From contig NZ_JABFHG010000001.1 in assembly GCF_013112485.1 (NCBI RefSeq), positions 62,001 to 126,000 on the forward strand: DNA of 64,000 nucleotides, in the 5' to 3' direction. This document shows positions 1-61,752 of the stretch, in pieces; positions within the stretch are counted from its first letter, which is position 1, and each line of letters opens with the position of its first letter. The translations under genes and the position numbers were made by a program. This stretch comes from Roseicella sp. DB1501. GTDB taxonomy: Bacteria > Pseudomonadota > Alphaproteobacteria > Acetobacterales > Acetobacteraceae. The notes beneath the pieces were generated by a model, which saw only the letters and a list, made by a program, of their open reading frames with translations, was not told the DNA's origin and searched no databases.

Positions 1-452
1 TCTTCCTCAGCTATTACGGCCTGGCGCTGGCGGGATTCGACCTGCCGCCGCTGATCGCCGCCACCGTCTCCATGGCGCTCTATGCCAGCGGCTTCCTCGG
101 CGAGATCTGGCGCGGCAGCATCCAGGCGGTGCCCTGGCAGCAATGGGAGGCCTCCTCGGCGCTCGCCTTCTCCCGGCCGCAGCAATACCGCTATGTCATC
201 CTGCCGCAGGCGGTGCGCATCGCCATCCCGCCGACCGTCGGCTTCCTGGTGCAGCTGGTGAAGAACACCTCCATCGTCTCGATCATCGGCGTGGTGGAGC
301 TGGCCCGCGCCGGCAACCTGGTCAACAACGCCACCTTCCAGCCCTTCAAGGTCTTCGGGACGGTGGCGGCGATCTACTTCGTCATCTGCTGGCCGATCTC
401 GCTTCTGGCCCGGCGTCTGGAAGGGAGGCTGCATGCCCGTCGTGCAGGTTGA
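1..452 (+). CDS. Amino-acid ABC transporter permease (HisM/GlnP type), 5' end cut by window
   Basis: C-terminal ~150 residues of an inner-membrane permease that moves polar amino acids; the gene starts before base 1 and is open from the first bases in this frame. The EAA cytoplasmic-loop motif that docks the ATPase is visible (EASSALAFS, then the YRYVILPQAVRIAIP stretch), followed by two hydrophobic segments and a basic tail. The ATPase gene begins 20 bp before this stop, so the two are translationally coupled. Family assignment is firm; the substrate cannot be read from this fragment, and the binding protein is not in the window. Confidence 0.9.
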   Translation, partial: FLSYYGLALAGFDLPPLIAATVSMALYASGFLGEIWRGSIQAVPWQQWEASSALAFSRPQQYRYVILPQAVRIAIPPTVGFLVQLVKNTSIVSIIGVVELARAGNLVNNATFQPFKVFGTVAAIYFVICWPISLLARRLEGRLHARRAG

Positions 453-1164
453 GGGCGTCCACAAGCGCTTCGGCGCGGTGGAGGTGCTGAAGGGCATCGA
501 CCTCGCGGTCGAGGGCGGCGAGGTGGTGGCCATCATCGGCCGCAGCGGCTCCGGCAAGTCGACGCTGCTCCGCTGCATCAACGGGCTGGAGCAGATCCAG
601 TCGGGCCGCATCGAGGTCTCCGGCCACAGCATCGACCCGAGCGGCCGGGGCCTGCGCGAGCTGCGCAAGGATGTCGGCATCGTCTTCCAGAGCTACAACC
701 TCTTCCCGCATCTGCGCGTCGGCGAGAACATCATGCTGGCGCCGCGCATCGTCCTCGGCGTCTCCAAGTCCGAGGCGCGGTCGCGGGCCGAGGAGACGCT
801 GGCCGAGGTCGGCCTCGCCGAGCGCTTCGACGCCTGGCCGGACAACCTCTCGGGCGGGCAGCAGCAGCGGGTCGCTATCGCCCGGTCGCTCGCCATGCGG
901 CCGAAGGTGATGCTGTTCGACGAAGTGACGAGCGCCCTCGACCCCGAGCTCACCGGCGAGGTGCTGGCGACGATGGAGCGACTCGCGCGGCACGGCATGA
1001 CCATGCTGCTGGTGACGCATGAGATGGGATTCGCCCGCCGGGTGGCGACGACCACCGTCTTCATGCACCAGGGCAAGGTGTGGGAGATGGGCCCCTCGGA
1101 GCGGATCTTCGGCGCGCCGGAGACGCCCGAGCTGCGGCAATTCCTCGGCGGCGGGCTGAAATAG
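433..1164 (+). CDS. Amino-acid ABC transporter ATP-binding protein (GlnQ/HisP type)
   Basis: Cytoplasmic ATPase that powers the upstream permease. Of 243 residues, Walker A is GRSGSGKS (36-43), the Q-loop Gln is about 86, the ABC signature LSGGQ is 139-143, Walker B is VMLFDE (159-164), and the H-loop His is about 196 in LLVTHEMGF. Length and motif order are normal for polar amino-acid importers. The start lies inside the permease gene (20-bp overlap). It ends about 100 bp before the thiolase-like gene, so the two groups may be separate transcripts. Confidence 0.95.
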   Translation: MPVVQVEGVHKRFGAVEVLKGIDLAVEGGEVVAIIGRSGSGKSTLLRCINGLEQIQSGRIEVSGHSIDPSGRGLRELRKDVGIVFQSYNLFPHLRVGENIMLAPRIVLGVSKSEARSRAEETLAEVGLAERFDAWPDNLSGGQQQRVAIARSLAMRPKVMLFDEVTSALDPELTGEVLATMERLARHGMTMLLVTHEMGFARRVATTTVFMHQGKVWEMGPSERIFGAPETPELRQFLGGGLK

Positions 1165-1266
1165 CGCGCCGCGACCGGCCTGCCCCGGCTTGACGCCGGG
1201 CCGCGTCCCGGAGAGGCTGCGGCCCCCATAGATAGCTAGCGAAGCAAAGGGAGGGCCGCGGCGCCC

Positions 1267-2439
1267 ATGAGCATCAGTGGCAAGGCCTATATCGCCGGGG
1301 CCTATGAGCACCCGACGCGCAAGGCCGACGATAAGTCGGTGGCGCAGCTGCATGCCGAGGTCGCCTATGGCGCCCTGCAGGATGCCGGGCTGACCAAGGA
1401 CGATGTCGACGGCTATTTCTGCACTGGCGCGGCGCCCGGCCTCGGCCCGCTCAACATGGCCGACTATCTCGGCCTGACGAAGCTGCGGCATCTCGACAGC
1501 ACCGATGTCGGCGGCTCCTCCTACGTGCTGCATGTCGGCCATGCGCTGGAGGCGATCGCGCTCGGCCAGTGCAATGTCGCCCTCGTCACCCTGGCCGGCC
1601 GGCCGCGGGCCGAGGCGATGGCGACCGGTACGGCGCCGCGGAGCTGGGGCGTCAACGTCCCCGACGATCCCTTCGAGATCCCCTATGGCCGCACCGTCGC
1701 CAATGCCTATGCGCTCTGCGCCATGCGGCACATGTACGAGTTCGGCACCACCTCCGAGCAGCTCGCCTGGATCAAGGTGGCGGCCAGCCATCACGCCCAG
1801 TGGAACGAGCACGCCATGCTCCGCAAGGTGGTGACGGTCGAGGACGTGGTGAACTCGCCCATGATCTCCGACCCGCTGCACCGGCTGGATTGCTGCGTCA
1901 TCTCCGATGGCGGCGGCGCCCTCATCATCACCCGGCCGGAGATCGCGAAGAGCCTGAAGCGCCCGCTGGTCAAGGTGAAGGGCCATGGCGAGGCGACCAA
2001 GAACCAGAATGCCGGCTATACCGACCTGACCTATTCCGGCGCCCGCTTCTCCGGCCCCCGCGCCTTCGAGGAGGCCGGCGTCCGGCCTGCGGACATCCAG
2101 TACGCCTCGATCTATGACAGCTTCACCATCACGGTGCTGATCCAGCTCGAGGATCTCGGCTTCTGCGAGAAGGGCCAAGGCGGCAAGTTCGTCGCCGACG
2201 GCAACCTCATCTCCGGCACCGGCAAGCTGCCCTTCAACACCGATGGCGGCGGGCTCTGCAACAACCACCCGGCCAATCGCGGCGGCATGACCAAGGTGAT
2301 CGAGGCGGTGCGCCAGCTCCGCGGCGAGGCGCATCCGAAGGTGCAGGTGCCCGGCTGCACCCTGGCCCTGGCGCATGGCACGGGCGGGCTGCTCGGCACC
2401 CGCCATGGCAGCGCGACCGTCATCCTGGAGAGGGAGTGA
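1267..2439 (+). CDS. Thiolase-superfamily protein lacking the nucleophilic Cys
   Basis: A 390-residue thiolase-fold protein of the SCP2/non-condensing type. The usual Cys-containing nucleophile loop is replaced by a DVGGSS stretch (about residues 80-85), while the C-terminal GGGLCNNHPANRGG and ALAHGTGG loops are recognisable; the second catalytic Cys is also replaced. Members of this group are usually encoded with a DUF35 partner, and here the DUF35 gene starts 5 bp after the stop. In characterised steroid side-chain systems (Ltp2 with ChsH2-DUF35) such Cys-less thiolases are retro-aldolases rather than thiolases. Retro-aldol cleavage of a CoA thioester is therefore as plausible as thiolysis. 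Downstream acyl-CoA genes support a CoA-ester role. Confidence 0.85.
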   Translation: MSISGKAYIAGAYEHPTRKADDKSVAQLHAEVAYGALQDAGLTKDDVDGYFCTGAAPGLGPLNMADYLGLTKLRHLDSTDVGGSSYVLHVGHALEAIALGQCNVALVTLAGRPRAEAMATGTAPRSWGVNVPDDPFEIPYGRTVANAYALCAMRHMYEFGTTSEQLAWIKVAASHHAQWNEHAMLRKVVTVEDVVNSPMISDPLHRLDCCVISDGGGALIITRPEIAKSLKRPLVKVKGHGEATKNQNAGYTDLTYSGARFSGPRAFEEAGVRPADIQYASIYDSFTITVLIQLEDLGFCEKGQGGKFVADGNLISGTGKLPFNTDGGGLCNNHPANRGGMTKVIEAVRQLRGEAHPKVQVPGCTLALAHGTGGLLGTRHGSATVILERE

Positions 2440-2444
2440 TCACC

Positions 2445-2843
2445 ATGGCGACGCCCGCTTCCAACCGCCAGCTTCCCGCCATCCAGGTGGATCCGACCAA
2501 CAAGCCCTATTTCGACGCCGCGCGCGAAGGCCGGCTGCTGATCGGGCTCTGCAAGGATACCAACAAGCATTTCTGGTATCCGCGCGGCTGCTCCCCCTTC
2601 ACCCTCTCGAACAATGTCGAGCTGGTGGAGGCCAAGGGCACCGGCACCATCTACACCTATACGGTGATGCGGACGAAGGAGCCCTATTGCGTCGCCTATG
2701 TCGAGCTGGATGAGGGCGTGCGCGTCTTCACCAACATCGTCGATTGCGACCTCGACAGCCTGAAGATCGGCCAGAAGGTGAAGGTGGTCTTCAAGCCGAC
2801 CCAGGGCGACTCGCCGCCGGCGACGATGTTCACCCCTGCCTGA
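2445..2843 (+). CDS. DUF35 OB-fold protein, partner of the thiolase-like gene
   Basis: About 132 residues with the N-terminal rubredoxin-like segment and C-terminal OB-fold typical of DUF35, which forms complexes with thiolase-fold enzymes and is thought to channel acyl-CoA. An ATG at 2445 follows a GAGAGGGAG ribosome site; a GTG at 2436 overlapping the previous stop is the alternative. The zinc ribbon is degenerate: each expected Cys pair retains one Cys (in GLCKD and PRGCSP), so zinc binding is doubtful. It almost certainly works with the preceding thiolase-like protein. Confidence 0.85.
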   Translation: MATPASNRQLPAIQVDPTNKPYFDAAREGRLLIGLCKDTNKHFWYPRGCSPFTLSNNVELVEAKGTGTIYTYTVMRTKEPYCVAYVELDEGVRVFTNIVDCDLDSLKIGQKVKVVFKPTQGDSPPATMFTPA

Positions 2844-2948
2844 CCCGGGCCGGCGGCCCGCGCCCCGGGCCGCCGGCCATCCTCCTTCCGCTGGCCATGG
2901 CGGCCCCGGCCGCGGCACCATCGCCGCAGCCGCGGAAGGACCCTCGCC

Positions 2949-4139
2949 ATGCGCCGCCGACACCTGCTGGGACGGGCCAGCGCCCTCACCCTCGCCGCGG
3001 CCGGGCCAGCCATCGCGCTGCCGGAGGGCGCGGCGAGCCTCGATCCGCTCCTCGCGCCGATGCTGGCGGAATACCGGCTGCCTGCCCTCGTCGCCGCCCT
3101 GGTGCGGGAGGGCAAGCTGCTCGGCGCCGGCGCGGTTGGCACCCGCTGCTGGGGCCGCGAGGCGCCGGTCCGCCTGGATGACGCCTTCCATATCGGCTCG
3201 GACACCAAGGCGATGACCTCGCTGCTGCTGGCCATGCTCGTCGAGCAGGGCCGGCTGCGCTGGGACACCACCTTGGGCGAAGGCCTGCCCGACCTCGCCG
3301 CCGGCATGGATCCCGGCCTCGCCGGGGTGACGCTGACCCAGCTTCTCTCGCATACCAGCGGCCTGCCCTCCGACAACGAGGTCTTCGAGCGCCTGCTCGG
3401 GCAGTCCTATCTGCAGTCGGGCAATCTCGATTCGCTGCGGTACTGGCTGGTGCAGACCTGGGGCCGGCAGCCCCTCGCCGCCCCGCCCGGCAGCCGCTTC
3501 GCCTATTCCAATCTCGGCTATGTCATGGCCGGCGCCATCGCCGAACGCGCGACCGGCCGGAGCTGGGAGGAGCTGGTCGCCGAGCGGATCTTCGACCCCC
3601 TCGGCCTCGCCACGGCCGGCTTCGGCCCGGCGGCGCGGCTCGGCCGGGTCGATGCGCCGCTCGGCCATCGCTGGCGGCAGGAGGCGGCGCCCGAGCCGAT
3701 GCTGGCCGGGCCCAATGGCGACAACCCGCTGATCATCGGCCCGGCCGGGACGGTGCATCTCTCGATCCTCGATTTCGCCGCCTGGGCGGCCTGGCACGCC
3801 GCCGAGGGCCGCCGCGGCCCGGCCCTGGTCACGCCGGAGACGGTGCGGCGCCTGCACCGGCCGGTCATCGACCTGCCGCCGCGGCCGGATGCGGCGCCCG
3901 GGACGCCGGCGACGGGCGGCTACGCGCTCGGCTGGGGGCGGCTCGCCCAGCCCTGGTCCCGCGAGCCCTTCCTGCAGCATGCCGGCTCCAACACCCTCAA
4001 CCTCGCGCTCGTCATGCTGCAGCCGCGGCTCGACTTCGCCATGGTCATGGCGACGAATATCGGCGGCGAGCGGGCGGACGCGGCGCTGAAGGCGCTGGCC
4101 GAGGCGCTCTACCGGCAGCACGGCCCGGCTCCGGCCTGA
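2949..4139 (+). CDS. Serine hydrolase, class C beta-lactamase/esterase family
   Basis: A 396-residue secreted or periplasmic hydrolase. It has an N-terminal arginine-rich signal-like segment (MRRRHLLGRAS, then hydrophobic), the SxxK nucleophile motif SDTK (about residues 80-83), the YxN motif YSN (about 182-184), and an HAG box near residue 340 in place of KTG. The HAG variant is common in esterases and D-aminopeptidases of this family rather than true beta-lactamases, so antibiotic hydrolysis should not be assumed. A GGAAGG site precedes the ATG. It lies inside the acyl-CoA cluster, so an ester or thioester substrate fits the context; the natural substrate is unknown. Confidence 0.88.
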   Translation: MRRRHLLGRASALTLAAAGPAIALPEGAASLDPLLAPMLAEYRLPALVAALVREGKLLGAGAVGTRCWGREAPVRLDDAFHIGSDTKAMTSLLLAMLVEQGRLRWDTTLGEGLPDLAAGMDPGLAGVTLTQLLSHTSGLPSDNEVFERLLGQSYLQSGNLDSLRYWLVQTWGRQPLAAPPGSRFAYSNLGYVMAGAIAERATGRSWEELVAERIFDPLGLATAGFGPAARLGRVDAPLGHRWRQEAAPEPMLAGPNGDNPLIIGPAGTVHLSILDFAAWAAWHAAEGRRGPALVTPETVRRLHRPVIDLPPRPDAAPGTPATGGYALGWGRLAQPWSREPFLQHAGSNTLNLALVMLQPRLDFAMVMATNIGGERADAALKALAEALYRQHGPAPA

Positions 4140-4207
4140 ACCGGCCGCCATTGCCTGCCGGCGCCCGGCCGCCTTACCTCTGCATCGACGAGGAAGGGAG
4201 AAGGCGG

Positions 4208-5029
4208 ATGTCGAGCCACCACGCCGCAACGGCAGCCAACGAGGCCATGGTGCTGCGCGAGGATCAGGGGCCGGTCGCCCTGCTCACCCTCAACCGCCCG
4301 GCGGTTCGCAACAGCCTCTCCCGCGCCATGCTCGCGGCGTTGCAGGAGGCGCTCGACGGCATCGCCGCGGATGAGCGCATCCGCTGCCTCGTCATCACCG
4401 CCGAAGGACCTGCCTTCTCGGCCGGGCACGACCTCAAGGAGATCACCGCGCATCGCGGGGATGCCGATGCCGGCCGCGCCTTCTTCGAGGACACCATGGC
4501 GGCCTGCAACCGGGTGATGCAGGCGGTGGTCGGCCTGCCGCAACCGGCGATCGCCGCCGTCGAGGGCGTCGCCACCGCCGCCGGCTGCCAGCTCGCCGCG
4601 AGCTGCGACCTCGTCGTCGCCGCCGAGAGCGCCAAATTCTGCACCCCCGGCGTCGATATCGGCCTGTTCTGCACCACCCCCGGCGTCGCCCTCGCCCGCG
4701 CCGTGCCGCGCAAGGCGGCGATGGAGATGCTGCTGCTCGGCGAGATGATCCCGGCGGCCGAGGCGCATCGCATGGGGCTGGTCAACCGCGTCGTGCCGCG
4801 CGGCGAGGCCCTGCCGGCGGCCCTCGGCCTCGCCCGCCGCATCGCCGCCCGCTCCGCCGTCGCGCTCCGCCTCGGCAAGCGCGGCTTCAACCGCCAGGCC
4901 GCCCTGCCGCTGGCCGAGGCCTATGCCGAGGCCGGTACGATCATGGTAGAGAACCTCCTCGCCGGGGATGCCGCCGAGGGGATCGGCGCCTTCCTCGGCA
5001 AGCGCGCGCCGGAATGGCGGCATCGGTAG
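4208..5029 (+). CDS. Enoyl-CoA hydratase/isomerase family protein
   Basis: A 273-residue crotonase-fold protein. The oxyanion-hole segment AGHDLKEI and the second one, VEGVATAAGCQLAASCDL, are clear. The residues following the latter (FCTPGVDIGLFCTTPG) resemble ECHDC3-like members, where the canonical catalytic Glu positions are not both conserved. A hydratase reaction is therefore likely by family but not proven. The ATG at 4208 follows a GAGGAAGGGAGAAGG ribosome site and is preferred over an upstream TTG at 4151. It lies 10 bp before the acyl-CoA synthetase gene, probably in one operon. Confidence 0.88.
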   Translation: MSSHHAATAANEAMVLREDQGPVALLTLNRPAVRNSLSRAMLAALQEALDGIAADERIRCLVITAEGPAFSAGHDLKEITAHRGDADAGRAFFEDTMAACNRVMQAVVGLPQPAIAAVEGVATAAGCQLAASCDLVVAAESAKFCTPGVDIGLFCTTPGVALARAVPRKAAMEMLLLGEMIPAAEAHRMGLVNRVVPRGEALPAALGLARRIAARSAVALRLGKRGFNRQAALPLAEAYAEAGTIMVENLLAGDAAEGIGAFLGKRAPEWRHR

Positions 5030-11093: not shown

Positions 11094-11137
11094 TCACGGG
11101 GCGGCTCGGACCTTGCGGTCCGGCCGCCCTTCGAACT

Positions 11138-11299
11138 CCCCGCAAAACCGCTTCGCGGCTTTGCGGGGGCCCCGTGGAGTCCCCTCCTGCCCCAGAACCG
11201 TCACAGCCTGCTGCGGCAAAGCCGCAGCAGGGCAATGGGTAGCAACGGCTTTGATAGGCGCTTTTCCGCATGCAGGGGCCGCGAAGCGGCTTTGCCGGG
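11138..11299. repeat. Interspersed repeat, family B, copy B1
   Basis: It holds two hairpins: CCCCGCAAA (11138-11146) with TTTGCGGGG (11160-11168), with an inner CCGC/GCGG; then CCTGCTGCGGC (11207-11217) with GCCGCAGCAGG (11221-11231) around AAA. A third small stem lies near 11272-11299. Copies occur at 27915, 37295 and 57902. It lies between the convergent 3' ends of the degP-like gene and rutE. Confidence 0.8.
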
Positions 11300-27914: not shown

Positions 27915-28008
27915 TCCCCACGACGTCGCTTCGCGCCGCCGCGGGGGCCCCGTGATTCGCTTCGGGCCGGAAGCGCGTCACAGCCTGCCGCGGCAAAGCC
28001 GCGGCAGG
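27915..28008. repeat. Interspersed repeat, family B, copy B2
   Basis: It contains the family B hairpin CCTGCCGCGGC (27984-27994) with GCCGCGGCAGG (27998-28008) around AAA, preceded by a GGGGGCCCC stretch. It fills the space between the convergent flgH and flavin monooxygenase genes and probably terminates both. Confidence 0.75.
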
Positions 28009-28037
28009 GCAACGGGAGGCGAGAGGGGCGGCGAGGG

Positions 28038-29804
28038 TTATTCCACCAGCCCGACCTCGCGCGCCTTGATCTGCAGCGCCAGGAATTTCGAGAAGATGCG
28101 GCACTGCGCCAGGCTGCCGGCGGTGAACCAGAGGCCGGGCTGCGGCGTCGGCCGCCACATGTTGCGCAGCTCGCCCCCCTCGTCGAAGCCCCAGACCGGC
28201 CCGATGCGGTCGGCGATCGCATCGCCCAGCGCCCGGCGCGCCACCTCCTGCTGGTTGCGATAGCCGGTCGCCATGACGAGGAGCGAGGCCGGCACCACGC
28301 GGCCGTCCTTCAGCCGCAGCCCCTCGGCCACGAAGCGATCGACCTCGTCCCACTGCACCAGCCCGATCTTGCCGTCGGCGATCAGGTCGGAGCAGCCGAC
28401 ATTGAAGTAGTAGCCGCCGCCCCGCTGCAGGTAGAGCAGCTGGAAGCCGCAGCCCTCGATCCCGTCGCTCAGCCGGAAGCCGCGCGCCTCCAGCCGCTGC
28501 AGCAAGGGCCGGTCGATCTCCTTCGAGGTCGCGGTCATCATCTGGTAGGCGCGCTTCAGCTCGGGATAGGGCAGCGCCGTGGCCAGCAGGTCGCAATCCC
28601 CGGTCGGCAGCCCCTCGGCATAGGTCGAGTAGACCCGCTGCGCCTCCTGCACCGAGACGATATGCGTCGGGCTGCGCTGGATCATGCTCACCCGGGCGCC
28701 GCTGGCGTGCAGGTCCTGCGCCACGTCATGGCCGCTGTTGCCGGTGCCGAGCACGATGGCCGGCTGCCCCTTCCAGGCGGCGCCGTCGGTATAGGCGCCG
28801 GAATGCATCACCGTGCCGCGGAAATCGCCGAGGCCCGGCAGGTCCGGCATGATGGGGATGCCGCTGACGCCGGTGGCAAAGACCAGGTGCCGCGGCCGCA
28901 TGATGCGCTCCCCGCCATCGACGCGGCGCAGCACCACCTCCCACTGCCGCGCCGCCGCGTCCCAGCGGCCGGAGGCCAGTTCGGTCGAGGTCCAGACATT
29001 CAGCTCCAGCGCCTCGACATAGGCCTCTAACCAGTTCGCCAGCATGTCCTTCGGGATGAAGACCGGCCAGGTCGGCGGGAAGGGCATGTAGGGCATGTGG
29101 TTGACATGCACCTCGTTGTGCAGCGTCAGCGAGTGGTAGCGGCGGCGCCAATTGTCGCCGACCCGCGCCTCGCGGTCGATCACCAGCGTGTCGACCCCGA
29201 GCGCCCCGAGCCGGGCGGCGATGCCGAGCCCGGCCTGACCGGCGCCGATGACGATCACCGCCGGGTCGCGATCGGCATAGGCGCGGGCCTCCGCGCGCTT
29301 GTCCGCCCAATTGGGGCCGCCGAAGTCGCGCGAGTAATCCTTCTCCGCCGCCTGCTGCCGCTGGCTGAGATCCGCATGGCCCCGCAACCCCTGCAGCGTC
29401 GTCGCCAGGATCCAGGCGCGCAGTCCGCCGGGCCCGCCCTCGTCCGGCACCAGCCGGGCGACGCCCTCGGCGGTGCCGGCGGCGGTCTCGAAGGCGAGGA
29501 AGCACTCGACCACCTCGCGGCCGACCCGGCTGACCTGGCGCGGCGCGGTGCGGCCCGGCGCCAGGCGCAGCCCGGCCGGGCGGGCGGCGGGCAGGGTCCG
29601 GCGCAGCCGGGCCTCGATATCCGGCGCGCCGCTCACCGTGGCGATGGTCCAGTCGAAGGCCAGGATGTCGCGCCAATGCCCCTCCGGCAGGAAGAGCCGC
29701 GCCGCCGCGGCGGCGTCCCCCTGCTCCAGGACCTCGCCGAGGGCGGCGATCCAGCTGCTGGCCGCAGCCTCGGGCGGCAGCGCCTCGCGGGTCATGACAT
29801 TCAT
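28038..29804 (-). CDS. Flavin-containing monooxygenase with N-terminal NTF2-like domain
   Basis: 588 residues. The first ~150 (GEVLEQGDAAAAARLFLPEGHWRD and on) look like a SnoaL/NTF2 alpha+beta barrel. Then comes a class B flavoprotein: FAD Rossmann motif VIGAGQAGLGIAARLG, a NADPH motif LGTGNSGHDVAQDL, and VMATGYRNQ near the end. Such enzymes oxidise N- or S-groups or ketones using NADPH and oxygen. The start MNVMTREAL at 29804 follows a GGAG site; longer in-frame starts lack one. It is divergent from a Bug receptor gene across 181 bp. The substrate is unknown. Confidence 0.85.
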   Translation of the reverse strand: MNVMTREALPPEAAASSWIAALGEVLEQGDAAAAARLFLPEGHWRDILAFDWTIATVSGAPDIEARLRRTLPAARPAGLRLAPGRTAPRQVSRVGREVVECFLAFETAAGTAEGVARLVPDEGGPGGLRAWILATTLQGLRGHADLSQRQQAAEKDYSRDFGGPNWADKRAEARAYADRDPAVIVIGAGQAGLGIAARLGALGVDTLVIDREARVGDNWRRRYHSLTLHNEVHVNHMPYMPFPPTWPVFIPKDMLANWLEAYVEALELNVWTSTELASGRWDAAARQWEVVLRRVDGGERIMRPRHLVFATGVSGIPIMPDLPGLGDFRGTVMHSGAYTDGAAWKGQPAIVLGTGNSGHDVAQDLHASGARVSMIQRSPTHIVSVQEAQRVYSTYAEGLPTGDCDLLATALPYPELKRAYQMMTATSKEIDRPLLQRLEARGFRLSDGIEGCGFQLLYLQRGGGYYFNVGCSDLIADGKIGLVQWDEVDRFVAEGLRLKDGRVVPASLLVMATGYRNQQEVARRALGDAIADRIGPVWGFDEGGELRNMWRPTPQPGLWFTAGSLAQCRIFSKFLALQIKAREVGLVE

Positions 29805-35074: not shown

Positions 35075-35122
35075 GCCCCTTGGCGCCGGGCGCAAACCTC
35101 CGGTTTGCCCGGGCCTTCGCGT
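35075..35122. repeat. Interspersed repeat, family C, copy C3
   Basis: It carries the core GGGCGCAAACCTCC then GGTTTGCCCGGG, as in C1, C2 and C4. Unlike the others it lies in a divergent gap (Bug receptor / nasT) and continues straight into the 27-bp tandem repeat. The gap 35007-35351 otherwise holds only a 7-bp GCGCCCG/CGGGCGC hairpin (35227-35242) and presumably promoters. Confidence 0.7.
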
Positions 35123-35124
35123 CG

Positions 35125-35204
35125 TGCGAACAGCACGCCTTTGGCGTGACATGCGAACAGCACGCCTTTGGCGTGACATGCGAACAGCACGCCTTCGGCG
35201 TGAC
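35125..35204. repeat. Three tandem 27-bp repeats, each a small hairpin
   Basis: Units start at 35125, 35152 and 35179 and begin TGCGAACAGCACGCC; the first two are identical and the third has one T-to-C change. Each unit carries CACGCC-TT(T/C)-GGCGTG, a 6-bp stem with a 3-nt loop. Array length may vary between strains. Confidence 0.85.
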
Positions 35205-37294: not shown

Positions 37295-37392
37295 ACTCCC
37301 CGCGAAACCGCTGCGCGGCTTTGTGGGGACCCCGGGGGGAGTCCCTCCCGCCCGGGAAACCGTCCAGCCTGCTGCGGCAAAGCCGCAGCAGG
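37295..37392. repeat. Interspersed repeat, family B, copy B3
   Basis: First hairpin ACTCCCCGC..GTGGGGA around a CCGCtgcGCGG core (37295-37329), then CCTGCTGCGGC (37368-37378) with GCCGCAGCAGG (37382-37392). It starts a few bases after the nasS stop, so it may separate nasS from cysG. Confidence 0.75.
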
Positions 37393-37498
37393 GCAATGGG
37401 AAGCGACGGTTTCAGGAGGCACTTAAGGCGCGGCCCGGCGTCTCCTGCCCAAGGGTCGGCTTGCCGCGCCGCCGGCCGGCGGCCACATGCCGAAGCGT

Positions 37499-39003: not shown

Positions 39004-40521
39004 ATGCCGGATGCCGATGCAATCCCCGTGGCGCGTACCAGCTTCGCCGCCGAGCAGTCGCGCCGGCGGCGGCAGGCGCGGCTCTGGGGCCTGCTCTGCC
39101 TCGCCCTCGCCGCCGGCATCGGCGCCGCGCTCAGCACCATCGCCGGGCCGCTGCTGCTGATCCTCGCCGCGGCGGGGCTTCGGCTCCTCGCTTGGCTCGG
39201 CCTCGCGCCGGGGGCGATGCGGCACGCCCTGCATGGGCTGGAGGGCTGGACCGCCGGGCATCTCCGCGCCCTCGACCGGGGTTTCGACCTGCTGGCGGCA
39301 GCCCAGCGGCCGGGCGACCTGCCGATGGCGCTGGCCGCGATGCTCGACGGCGCGGGCCTGCTGCTGCCGGGGATGCTGGCGGCCATGCTGCTCTGGGCCG
39401 GCCTCGCCCGCTTCTACCGCCGCAGCGCCGCCGCCTCCGCCGCGGCCGACCTGCGGGCCCGCCCGCCGCGCCGGCAGGATGCCGAGGAGCACCAGCTCGG
39501 CAACATCCTGGCCGAGCTCGCCCTCGCCGCCGGCCAACCGGTGCCGCGCCTGCTGATGGTCGACGCGCCGGAGCCGAATGCCGGGGCCTTCGGCGCCTCG
39601 CACCGGGAGGCGGTGGTGATCGCCACGCGCGGGCTGCTCGAGCGGCTGGACCGGCGGCAGACCCAGGGCGTGGTCGCGCATCTCCTCGCCGCGACGGGCC
39701 AGGGCGACCTGCGGCTCGCCGCCGCGGTGGAGGCGGTGCTGGGCACGGTCGGCGCCATGGTCCTGGTCTTCGACCTGCCCTTCCGCCGCGGCGCCTGGAC
39801 GACCCTGCGCGACCTGCTGCTGGCGTTGGCCGGCGGCCTGCCCGCGGCCGAGGCCGACCGGCTGCGCGCCGGCCTCGCCGCCAGCGCCTCGGCGAGTTCG
39901 ATGGATGCCATGAACCGGGTGCTCGGCATCGCCGACCGCTGGCCGCCCCTCGGCGCCCTGCTGGTGGCGCCGCTCATCCCCTGGGTGCTGCTGACCCTGG
40001 CGCAGAAGCTGCTCGTCGCGCTCTGGATGCTCTTCGTCTTCGGCTGGCCGCTCGGCCTGCTGTGGCGGACGCGGCGCTACCGGGCCGATGCCGGGGCGGT
40101 CGAGCTGCTGCGCGATCCCGAGGCGCTGGCCGCGGCGCTGCGCCGGATCGACGCGGCGGGCCTGCCGCCCGGCGGCGGGCTGCAGGAGCTCGGCCTGTTC
40201 CATGCGCCGCAGCAGGGCCACGGCCCCGGCTTTCGCGAGCGGGCCAGCCTGGCCTTCCCCCTCACCCCGCCGATCCGGCGCCGGCTGGCGCGTCTCGCCG
40301 CGCTCGGCGCCGAGGGGGGGCAGGCGCGGACGCTCGGGCAAGAGCTGCGCGGCCTCGCGGCGCTGCGCGGCTGGAAGGCGGCGCTGGTGATCGGCCTGAC
40401 GGCGCTGCTGGTGCCGCTCACCGTCGTGCTGGCCATCATGGTCGGCATGCTCATGCTCGGCGCGGCGCTGTTCTCCCTCATGGGCGGGGCGGCGCTCGCC
40501 TCGCTCGTCCTCCGCCTCTAG
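39004..40521 (+). CDS. M48 (HtpX/BepA)-like membrane protein with destroyed zinc site
   Basis: 505 residues: N-terminal TM hairpin (about 27-65), another TM near 118-135, an M48 peptidase-like core (EEHQLGNILAELALAAGQPV through LLERLDRRQTQGVVAHLLAATGQGDLRLA), TM segments near 320-350, and a C-terminal hydrophobic pair. At the HExxH position it reads H226-L-L-A-A230, and the third ligand position (REFLAD in HtpX) reads RRYRAD (357-362). Catalytic Glu and two zinc ligands are thus gone. The surrounding fold is well kept, so it looks like a pseudo-protease rather than decay. lemA, a frequent neighbour of M48 genes, follows. Confidence 0.7.
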   Translation: MPDADAIPVARTSFAAEQSRRRRQARLWGLLCLALAAGIGAALSTIAGPLLLILAAAGLRLLAWLGLAPGAMRHALHGLEGWTAGHLRALDRGFDLLAAAQRPGDLPMALAAMLDGAGLLLPGMLAAMLLWAGLARFYRRSAAASAAADLRARPPRRQDAEEHQLGNILAELALAAGQPVPRLLMVDAPEPNAGAFGASHREAVVIATRGLLERLDRRQTQGVVAHLLAATGQGDLRLAAAVEAVLGTVGAMVLVFDLPFRRGAWTTLRDLLLALAGGLPAAEADRLRAGLAASASASSMDAMNRVLGIADRWPPLGALLVAPLIPWVLLTLAQKLLVALWMLFVFGWPLGLLWRTRRYRADAGAVELLRDPEALAAALRRIDAAGLPPGGGLQELGLFHAPQQGHGPGFRERASLAFPLTPPIRRRLARLAALGAEGGQARTLGQELRGLAALRGWKAALVIGLTALLVPLTVVLAIMVGMLMLGAALFSLMGGAALASLVLRL

Positions 40522-40581
40522 ACCAATGTTTGATCGCGTGATTCACGCTTTCGGTGCGTCCACCTCAAGCGATCACGCTCT
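40518..40581. repeat. Interspersed repeat, family A, short copy A2
   Basis: A half element lacking the GGACCATGATCCG hairpin: CTAGACCAATG, then TGATCGCGTGATTCACGC, ending in GCGATCACGCTCT. Its leading CTAG contains the TAG stop (40519-40521) of the M48-like gene, and its far end is 13 bp before lemA. It lies inside what should be one operon. Confidence 0.75.
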
Positions 40582-40594
40582 GAAGGAAGCCCGC

Positions 40595-41143
40595 ATGGCC
40601 TGGTGGATCCTCGGCCTCGTCGTCCTGCTGCTGGTCCTGGCCGGCCTGCTCTACAACGGGCTGGTCACGGCGCGGAACCGCATCCGCAACGCCTGGTCGC
40701 AGATCGAGGTGCAGCTCCTGCGCCGCAGCGACCTGATCCCGGACCTGGTCGAGACAGCGCGCGGCTACATGCAGCACGAGAGCGGCATCTTCGATCGCAT
40801 CCTGGAGGCGCGCCGGCAGGCGACGGCGGCCGGCGCCGCGATCCCCGCCCGCGCCGCGGCCGAGGCGACGCTCGGGCGGCAGGTGCAGGGGTTGATGGCG
40901 CTCGCCGAGGCGGTGCCGGCGCTGCGCGCGAGCGAGCCCATGCAGCGGCTGCAGGAGGAGCTGGCGACGACCGAGAACCGCATCGCCTTCGCCCGGCAGT
41001 TCTTCAACGATGCGGTGCTCGCCTACAACAACCGCACCCAGACGCTGCCCGGCAGCCTGCTCGCCGGCCCCCTCGGCTTCGGCCCGGAAGCCTATTTCGA
41101 GGCGCCGGCCGAGGCGAAGGCCAAGCCGGTGGTCCGCTTCTGA
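40595..41143 (+). CDS. LemA family protein
   Basis: 182 residues: one N-terminal TM helix (about 3-22), then the long LemA helical bundle (NRIRNAWSQIEVQLLRRSDLIPDLVETARGYM, ENRIAFARQFFNDAVLAYNN, LPGSLLAGPLGF). The exact role of LemA is unknown; it is often encoded with membrane M48 proteases or TPM proteins. The ATG at 40595 follows GGAAG; a longer start would be inside repeat A2. Its partner here appears to be the inactive M48-like protein upstream. Confidence 0.93.
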   Translation: MAWWILGLVVLLLVLAGLLYNGLVTARNRIRNAWSQIEVQLLRRSDLIPDLVETARGYMQHESGIFDRILEARRQATAAGAAIPARAAAEATLGRQVQGLMALAEAVPALRASEPMQRLQEELATTENRIAFARQFFNDAVLAYNNRTQTLPGSLLAGPLGFGPEAYFEAPAEAKAKPVVRF

Positions 41144-43155: not shown

Positions 43156-43261
43156 CTAGACCATGATCCGCTCACACAGGGTCGCGGATCATGGTCCAGG
43201 CCGTTGCTTGATCGCGTGAGTCACGCTGTTCGGTGAGTCCACCTCAAGCGATCACGCTCTG
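43156..43261. repeat. Interspersed repeat, family A, copy A3
   Basis: A full 106-bp element: CTAGACCATGATCCG, the 38-bp hairpin, the TGATCGCG/GCGATCA half, ending CACGCTCT. It is nearly identical to A1 and A4. It lies between the convergent amidohydrolase and antiporter genes, 8 bp from the antiporter stop. Confidence 0.85.
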
Positions 43262-58000: not shown

Positions 58001-58106
58001 CTAAACCATGATCCGCTCACACAGGGTCGCGGATCATGGTCGAGGCCGTTGCTTGAGCGCGTGAGTCACGCTTTTCGGTGAGTCCACCTCAAGCGGTCAC
58101 GCTCTA
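58001..58106. repeat. Interspersed repeat, family A, copy A4
   Basis: A full 106-bp element beginning CTAAACCATGATCCG and ending CACGCTCTAG. The last CTA (58104-58106) is the complement of the pal TAG stop codon. It separates pal from cpoB within the Tol-Pal operon. Confidence 0.85.
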
Positions 58107-61647: not shown

Positions 61648-61749
61648 CTAGACGATGATCCGCCCACACAGGTTCGCGGACCATGATCTAGCGCGTTGTT
61701 TGGTCGCGTGATTCGCGCCTTCGGTGAGTCCACCTCAGGCGATCACGCT

Positions 61750-61752
<3 letters not shown>
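61648..61752. repeat. Interspersed repeat, family A, copy A5
   Basis: Element beginning CTAGACGATGATCCGC and ending CACGCTCTAG; the hairpin arms carry a few changes from A1/A3/A4. Its last CTA (61750-61752) is the complement of the tolR TAG stop. It lies between tolR and tolA. The remaining 61404-61647 of this gap has no gene or clear signal. Confidence 0.8.

Follow-up and report, generated by a model that had tools for sequence, protein, structure and literature searches.

LemA proteins are widespread and, to our knowledge, functionally obscure; MamQ is one of them. Within the M48 proteins, HtpX, Ste24p/ZMPSTE24 and BepA have an active zinc site. In the magnetosome island a catalytically dead protease, MamO (PMC7017999), is required along with MamQ; MamO is a serine-protease homologue and not an M48 protein. 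YqgP is a bacterial membrane protease that serves as a non-proteolytic FtsH adaptor (PMC7231995). Here we describe, from a window of 64,000 nucleotides (the whole stretch of DNA analysed) of Roseicella sp. DB1501, an M48-like membrane protein encoded next to lemA that differs from HtpX, Ste24p/ZMPSTE24 and BepA in having lost the catalytic Glu together with two zinc ligands, the second His and the third ligand (hereafter pseudo-M48). Its likeness to iRhoms and YqgP would be one of proposed logic alone – the fold of a membrane protease put to a use other than cleavage – since these have the rhomboid fold, which is unrelated to M48. A literature search, judged by titles and the starts of abstracts, found no description of a pseudo-M48/LemA pair.

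The pseudo-M48 gene and its surroundings

The original prediction held that the frame aligns with the M48 core, that HLLAA stands in place of HExxH and that the third-ligand Glu is Arg358. All three statements are borne out. The frame encodes 505 residues, of which 161-380 match Pfam Peptidase_M48 (PF01435; E 6.5e-8, 33.1 bits vs a 20.3-bit cut-off), a score above the gathering threshold that places the protein in the family as a homologue; NCBIfam HtpX models match it only below their cut-offs (best 1.2e-23). Both substitutions occur at the predicted positions in the translation (Table 1), the third-ligand region reading R357-R358-Y-R-A-D as opposed to R-E-[FY]-x-A-D in active M48. An AlphaFold2 model, for which the input alignment was restricted to the pseudo clade, has a mean pLDDT of 82.1 and a pTM of 0.80; in structure comparison (VIA-align) the top rows are M48 proteins, and no rhomboid is named among the matches listed. 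The modelled protein has the M48 fold. Two sequence hallmarks of an active M48 zinc metalloprotease are missing from it, neither HExxH nor a Glu third ligand being present, and a search of the whole translation for a second, intact HExxH found none: the pseudo-protease reading stands. From its residues M48-type catalysis is not to be expected, and the protein is almost certainly a pseudoprotease.

Table 1. Features of the pseudo-M48/lemA locus (positions in the window).
Feature	Position	Strand	Basis
Pseudo-M48 membrane protein, 505 aa	39004..40521	+	ORF, translation, Pfam, structure model
N-terminal hydrophobic stretch, pseudo-M48 residues 24-72	39073..39219	+	hydropathy; model helix 14-65
Gly at residue 194 of pseudo-M48	39583..39585	+	position comparison, pseudo vs active
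HLLAA replacing HExxH, residues 226-230	39679..39693	+	translation and alignment
Trp354 of pseudo-M48	40063..40065	+	position comparison, pseudo vs active
Arg358, third zinc-ligand position of pseudo-M48	40075..40077	+	alignment
C-terminal hydrophobic stretch, pseudo-M48 residues 456-505	40369..40518	+	hydropathy, structure model
Palindromic repeat, 65 nt, at pseudo-M48 stop codon	40517..40581	+	repeat and relatives comparison
LemA, 182 aa, partner of pseudo-M48	40595..41143	+	PF04011, LemA clade
LemA Ile65	40787..40789	+	position comparison among LemA proteins

The end of the gene coincides with a palindromic extragenic repeat, which supplies the TAG stop codon of pseudo-M48, leaves the end of the protein unchanged and widens the gap to lemA. 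In relatives these genes are tightly spaced: the pseudo-M48 stop lies within ~20 bases of the lemA start in loci L002, L003, L004, L034 and L005. The 13-base core of the repeat, GCGTGATTCACGC, has 28 exact copies in the genome vs 0 for the reversed control, and the folded RNA has a z of -2.9. Further copies in the window lie at 61687-61751 and 58059-58077, and a 105-nt family overlapping the repeat is found at 43156-43260, 58001-58105 and 61648-61752. A candidate lemA start at 40526 falls within the repeat and was replaced by 40595 (MAWWILGL, as in orthologues), which is the most likely start on sequence grounds. The window holds another dispersed repeat family (~127 nt, with a palindromic GCTGCGGCAAAGCCGCAGC core, at 11137-11263, 27915-28040 and 37297-37424), and at 35118-35204 a GCGAACAGCACGCCTTTGGCGTGAC-like sequence occurs as three tandem copies with 27-nt spacing. 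Upstream of the pair, in the window and in L033, is a siroheme-synthase-like gene (named by eye); the conserved neighbours give no functional clue.

Shared loss of catalytic residues, origin and distribution

Relatives come from the window's family (Acetobacteraceae, broad sense), from that of Reyranella and from Chloroflexota. After removal of duplicates the pseudo set comprised 19 distinct proteins, of which 18 were aligned; L110 was left out because it is cut by a contig end, and its motif GHLIGS fits the pseudo pattern (catalytic Glu to Leu). For comparison, 59 active M48 proteins (by our own labels 32 short LemA-linked, 14 large LemA-linked and 13 HtpX) were hand-picked out of the active-type rows fetched (108, of which 105 are distinct), and all 108 carry HExxH. 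All three ligands and the catalytic Glu are retained in 59 of the 59 aligned active proteins. Among the pseudo-proteins Leu takes the place of the catalytic Glu in 18 of 18 (and in all 19 distinct relatives), while the second His, absent from all 19, is Ala in 8, Ser in 7 and Thr in 3 of the 18 aligned. The third ligand, Glu in all 59 active proteins, is Arg in 11 and Cys in 7 of the 18 that reach the site. Ten retain the first His, 7 have Arg there and 1 has Gln; with 10 of 18 retaining it, some members may bind metal weakly. Beyond the catalytic residues, position 194 is Ala in 16 and Gly in 2 pseudo-proteins (the Phe of NAFA in 58 of 59 active), and position 354 is Trp in all 18 (Ser in 58 of 59 active): in the alignment these are two further cleft-motif positions altered along with catalytic loss. 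Residues 361-380, the rewired third-ligand helix, have a mean entropy of 0.89 bits, against 1.42 overall and a minimum of 0.74 at 161-180.

In a tree built without the catalytic columns the 18 pseudo-proteins form a single clade (100/100), whose sister group is the large LemA-linked M48 proteins (91/90). The clade is also set apart by profile score: at least 323 bits, vs at most 157 for other M48 rows. By these sequence relationships pseudo-M48 descends once from an active M48 protease, and the active ancestor was probably LemA-linked. The sister proteins (~620-700 aa, found within the window's phylum but outside its class, in what we take to be Gammaproteobacteria) likewise have the M48 core and a lemA in the fetched stretch, and the two printed share the N-terminal FF..Q..RR membrane start. 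They differ in keeping HExxH and Glu, in having lemA first and, by eye, in a long non-hydrophobic tail where pseudo-M48 has its C-terminal hydrophobic stretch.

The distribution of pseudo-M48 is patchy. At E 1e-30 the gene is carried by 6 of 397 genomes of the window's family, the window's own included; within this family the ligand loss goes with an adjoining lemA of a dedicated sub-type. In even samples of the class (385 genomes) and the phylum (200 genomes) the window's own genome was alone in the pseudo score range, and G001, from the window's own genus, has neither pseudo-M48 nor a LemA match. A pattern-led scan of named genomes gave 10 loci (Roseicella frigidaeris, R. aerolata, Paracraurococcus, Dankookia rubra, Reyranella massiliensis and a Chloroflexi MAG are among the sources), a scan that favours pseudo members because one of its two peptide patterns extends into the HLxxA region. 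Pseudo-M48 occurs in 7 of 75 genomes of the family of R. massiliensis and in 4 of 301 of the phylum of the Chloroflexi MAG, 3 of these 4 falling within a single order, of which 16 genomes were covered. Residence on a phage or plasmid was considered and rejected: none of 23 pattern matches in IMG/VR encodes a relative, and none of 16 matching plasmid records reaches 80% query coverage. At the start of its pseudo-M48 frame the Chloroflexi MAG locus (L041, 1608-1680) has a CxxC...CxxC zinc-ribbon-like segment, unseen in the other printed pseudo-proteins.

The LemA partner

Residues 33-182 of the window's LemA match positions 1-149 of PF04011, that is, the whole model (1.5e-47, 161.6 bits), and an N-terminal hydrophobic segment can be read from the sequence; lemA is intact. 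The statement in the original prediction that LemA is commonly encoded with active M48 proteases agrees with the data: 85 active-type rows (82 distinct) have a lemA in the fetched stretch, and in all 85 lemA comes first. The order is M48 then lemA in 8 of the 9 distinct pseudo loci that have lemA (L034 being so counted from coordinates, its lemA frame staying open far upstream), and the reverse in L031. The 9 LemA proteins from these loci form one clade against 83 others (100/98), and the position of Ile65 is Ile in 8 and Val in 1 of them but Thr in 80 of the 83. This LemA is the sole one found in five carriers of the window's family (G000, G002, G003, G004 and G021) and in G918 and G950 on the Chloroflexota side; G329 has a second. 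In the window's family and two Chloroflexota genomes, pseudo-M48 is, going by LemA sequences, accompanied by its own LemA sub-type. In the Chloroflexota-side locus L143, genes divergent from the pair (3-4605) have, by eye, a PspC-like start, which would fit a membrane-stress setting.

The link is not universal, because seven Reyranella-family carriers have no lemA beside pseudo-M48 and keep a separate active-type pair: in every one of them one or two LemA genes lie elsewhere, and one of these genes adjoins an M48 with HExxH. No LemA at all was found in the Chloroflexota-side carriers G1070 and G780, and both genomes may be incomplete. A check for displaced partners covered five stretches, holding the extra LemA genes (of two Reyranella-family genomes and G329) and two weak M48 C-terminal matches. 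A profile search of these stretches returned no pseudo-M48 relative at E 0.01, and their LemA genes are 34-37% identical to the window's. Among the best 30 M48 loci from 18 genomes (17 carriers plus G001), 28 have HExxH and the other 2 are pseudo loci.

Selection, possible roles and significance

Judged by the residues, zinc would no longer be held in the standard site and water would not be activated. The cleft would instead be remodelled, with Leu for the catalytic Glu, Ala, Ser or Thr for the second His, Arg or Cys for the third-ligand Glu, Trp for Ser, and Ala or Gly for Phe. Together with the membrane helices it could bind a client membrane protein, or else a partner protease (HtpX or FtsH, for example), with LemA assembling with pseudo-M48. 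A binding function is likelier than none because the old active-site helices are among the most conserved segments and because the window's family and two Chloroflexota-side genomes inherit a dedicated LemA along with pseudo-M48. The role would then lie in membrane-protein quality control or protease regulation. The scaffold or inhibitor role, likened to that of iRhoms, which the original prediction put forward would be plausible. That pseudo-M48 acts as a non-cutting membrane adaptor or scaffold is, taken by itself, a tentative proposal made by analogy; taken as a whole, we lean slightly towards the explanation that an obligate, long-established pseudo-M48, usually with LemA, serves in this way. 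More tentative again is the specific case of a two-gene module of pseudo-M48 and a dedicated LemA sub-type, found in Alphaproteobacteria and Chloroflexota, that would act as a non-cutting membrane-protein adaptor: a counterpart of iRhoms and Derlins on an unrelated fold.

Were pseudo-M48 instead the decaying remnant of a LemA-linked protease, not yet lost, its patchiness (6 of 397 family genomes, 4 of 301 in the phylum of the Chloroflexi MAG) and the in-frame stop in L108 would be readily accommodated, as would a dN/dS exceeding that of LemA. The latter, by a simple counting method that is indicative only (it makes no base-composition correction), is 0.34-0.63 for pseudo-M48 vs 0.18-0.39 for LemA (15 pairs each); GC3 is ~96%, so that synonymous change is likely underestimated and absolute values are unreliable, and the comparison suggests a protein that is constrained, but less tightly than LemA. 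Against its nearest orthologue (84% identical) pseudo-M48 differs at 50/49/104 sites of codon positions 1/2/3 (505 codons); the corresponding figures are 11/10/33 for LemA (182 codons) and 17/13/51 for HtpX (309 codons). Frames are unbroken in 16 of 19 copies, L041 and L110 being cut by contig ends and L108, on the Chloroflexota side, having the internal stop, and segments are strongly conserved; L111 stops short of the C-terminal hydrophobic part. Moreover, the same substitutions persist from 84% to ~30% identity across two phyla. Decay, which scattered breakage among orthologues would have signalled, is largely refuted by the relatives and is highly improbable. The view of the original prediction that the gene is otherwise intact and selected is strongly supported by the conserved loss, the single clade, the open frames and the co-inherited LemA clade. 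Since pseudo-M48 is kept in distantly related bacteria, usually beside its own LemA type, it is probably a non-cutting membrane helper.

Such a helper need not be a client adaptor: it could be an inhibitory or modulating subunit of HtpX, an active protease that shares its fold. G000, G002, G003 and G004 encode an HtpX-type M48 whose HExxH is intact, and MamO and MamE provide a case of a dead protease regulating a live one (PMC7017999); but HtpX is unlinked to the pseudo-M48 locus, the other M48 found in G021 (AHELGHFKLNH) looks, by eye, Ste24-like rather than HtpX, and no further M48 was found in G329 (88% complete). This reading is unlikely. A rebuilding of the cleft with other residues, for a different reaction that may need no metal, would suit the strong conservation of the old third-ligand helix, in which W354, R355, R357 and D362 are invariant among 16 aligned pseudo-proteins. 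Those same 16 share no invariant His or Cys, however, and the invariant Asp and Glu are absent from the list of pseudo-specific positions and so look like inherited M48 residues; a new enzyme is improbable. We give as little credence to a metal-binding role, for which the MamO precedent (PMC7017999) might be cited, as might the fact that MamQ is the only NCBIfam model matching the window's LemA (68.1 bits, E 7.2e-19, below its cut-off of 250): the old ligands are not conserved, the first His having given way to Arg in 7 and to Gln in 1 of 18. The non-cutting adaptor or scaffold remains our preferred reading.

A pseudoprotease of long standing, kept by selection and usually joined by a LemA of its own, is a new form of the LemA-M48 pair. 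Pseudo-M48 genes risk being annotated as active M48 metalloproteases. Pseudo-M48 would be an example, among bacterial membrane pseudoproteases, of one that is not a rhomboid, and a lineage in which a conserved dead protease is the partner of LemA would separate the role of LemA from proteolysis, offering a clean genetic system.
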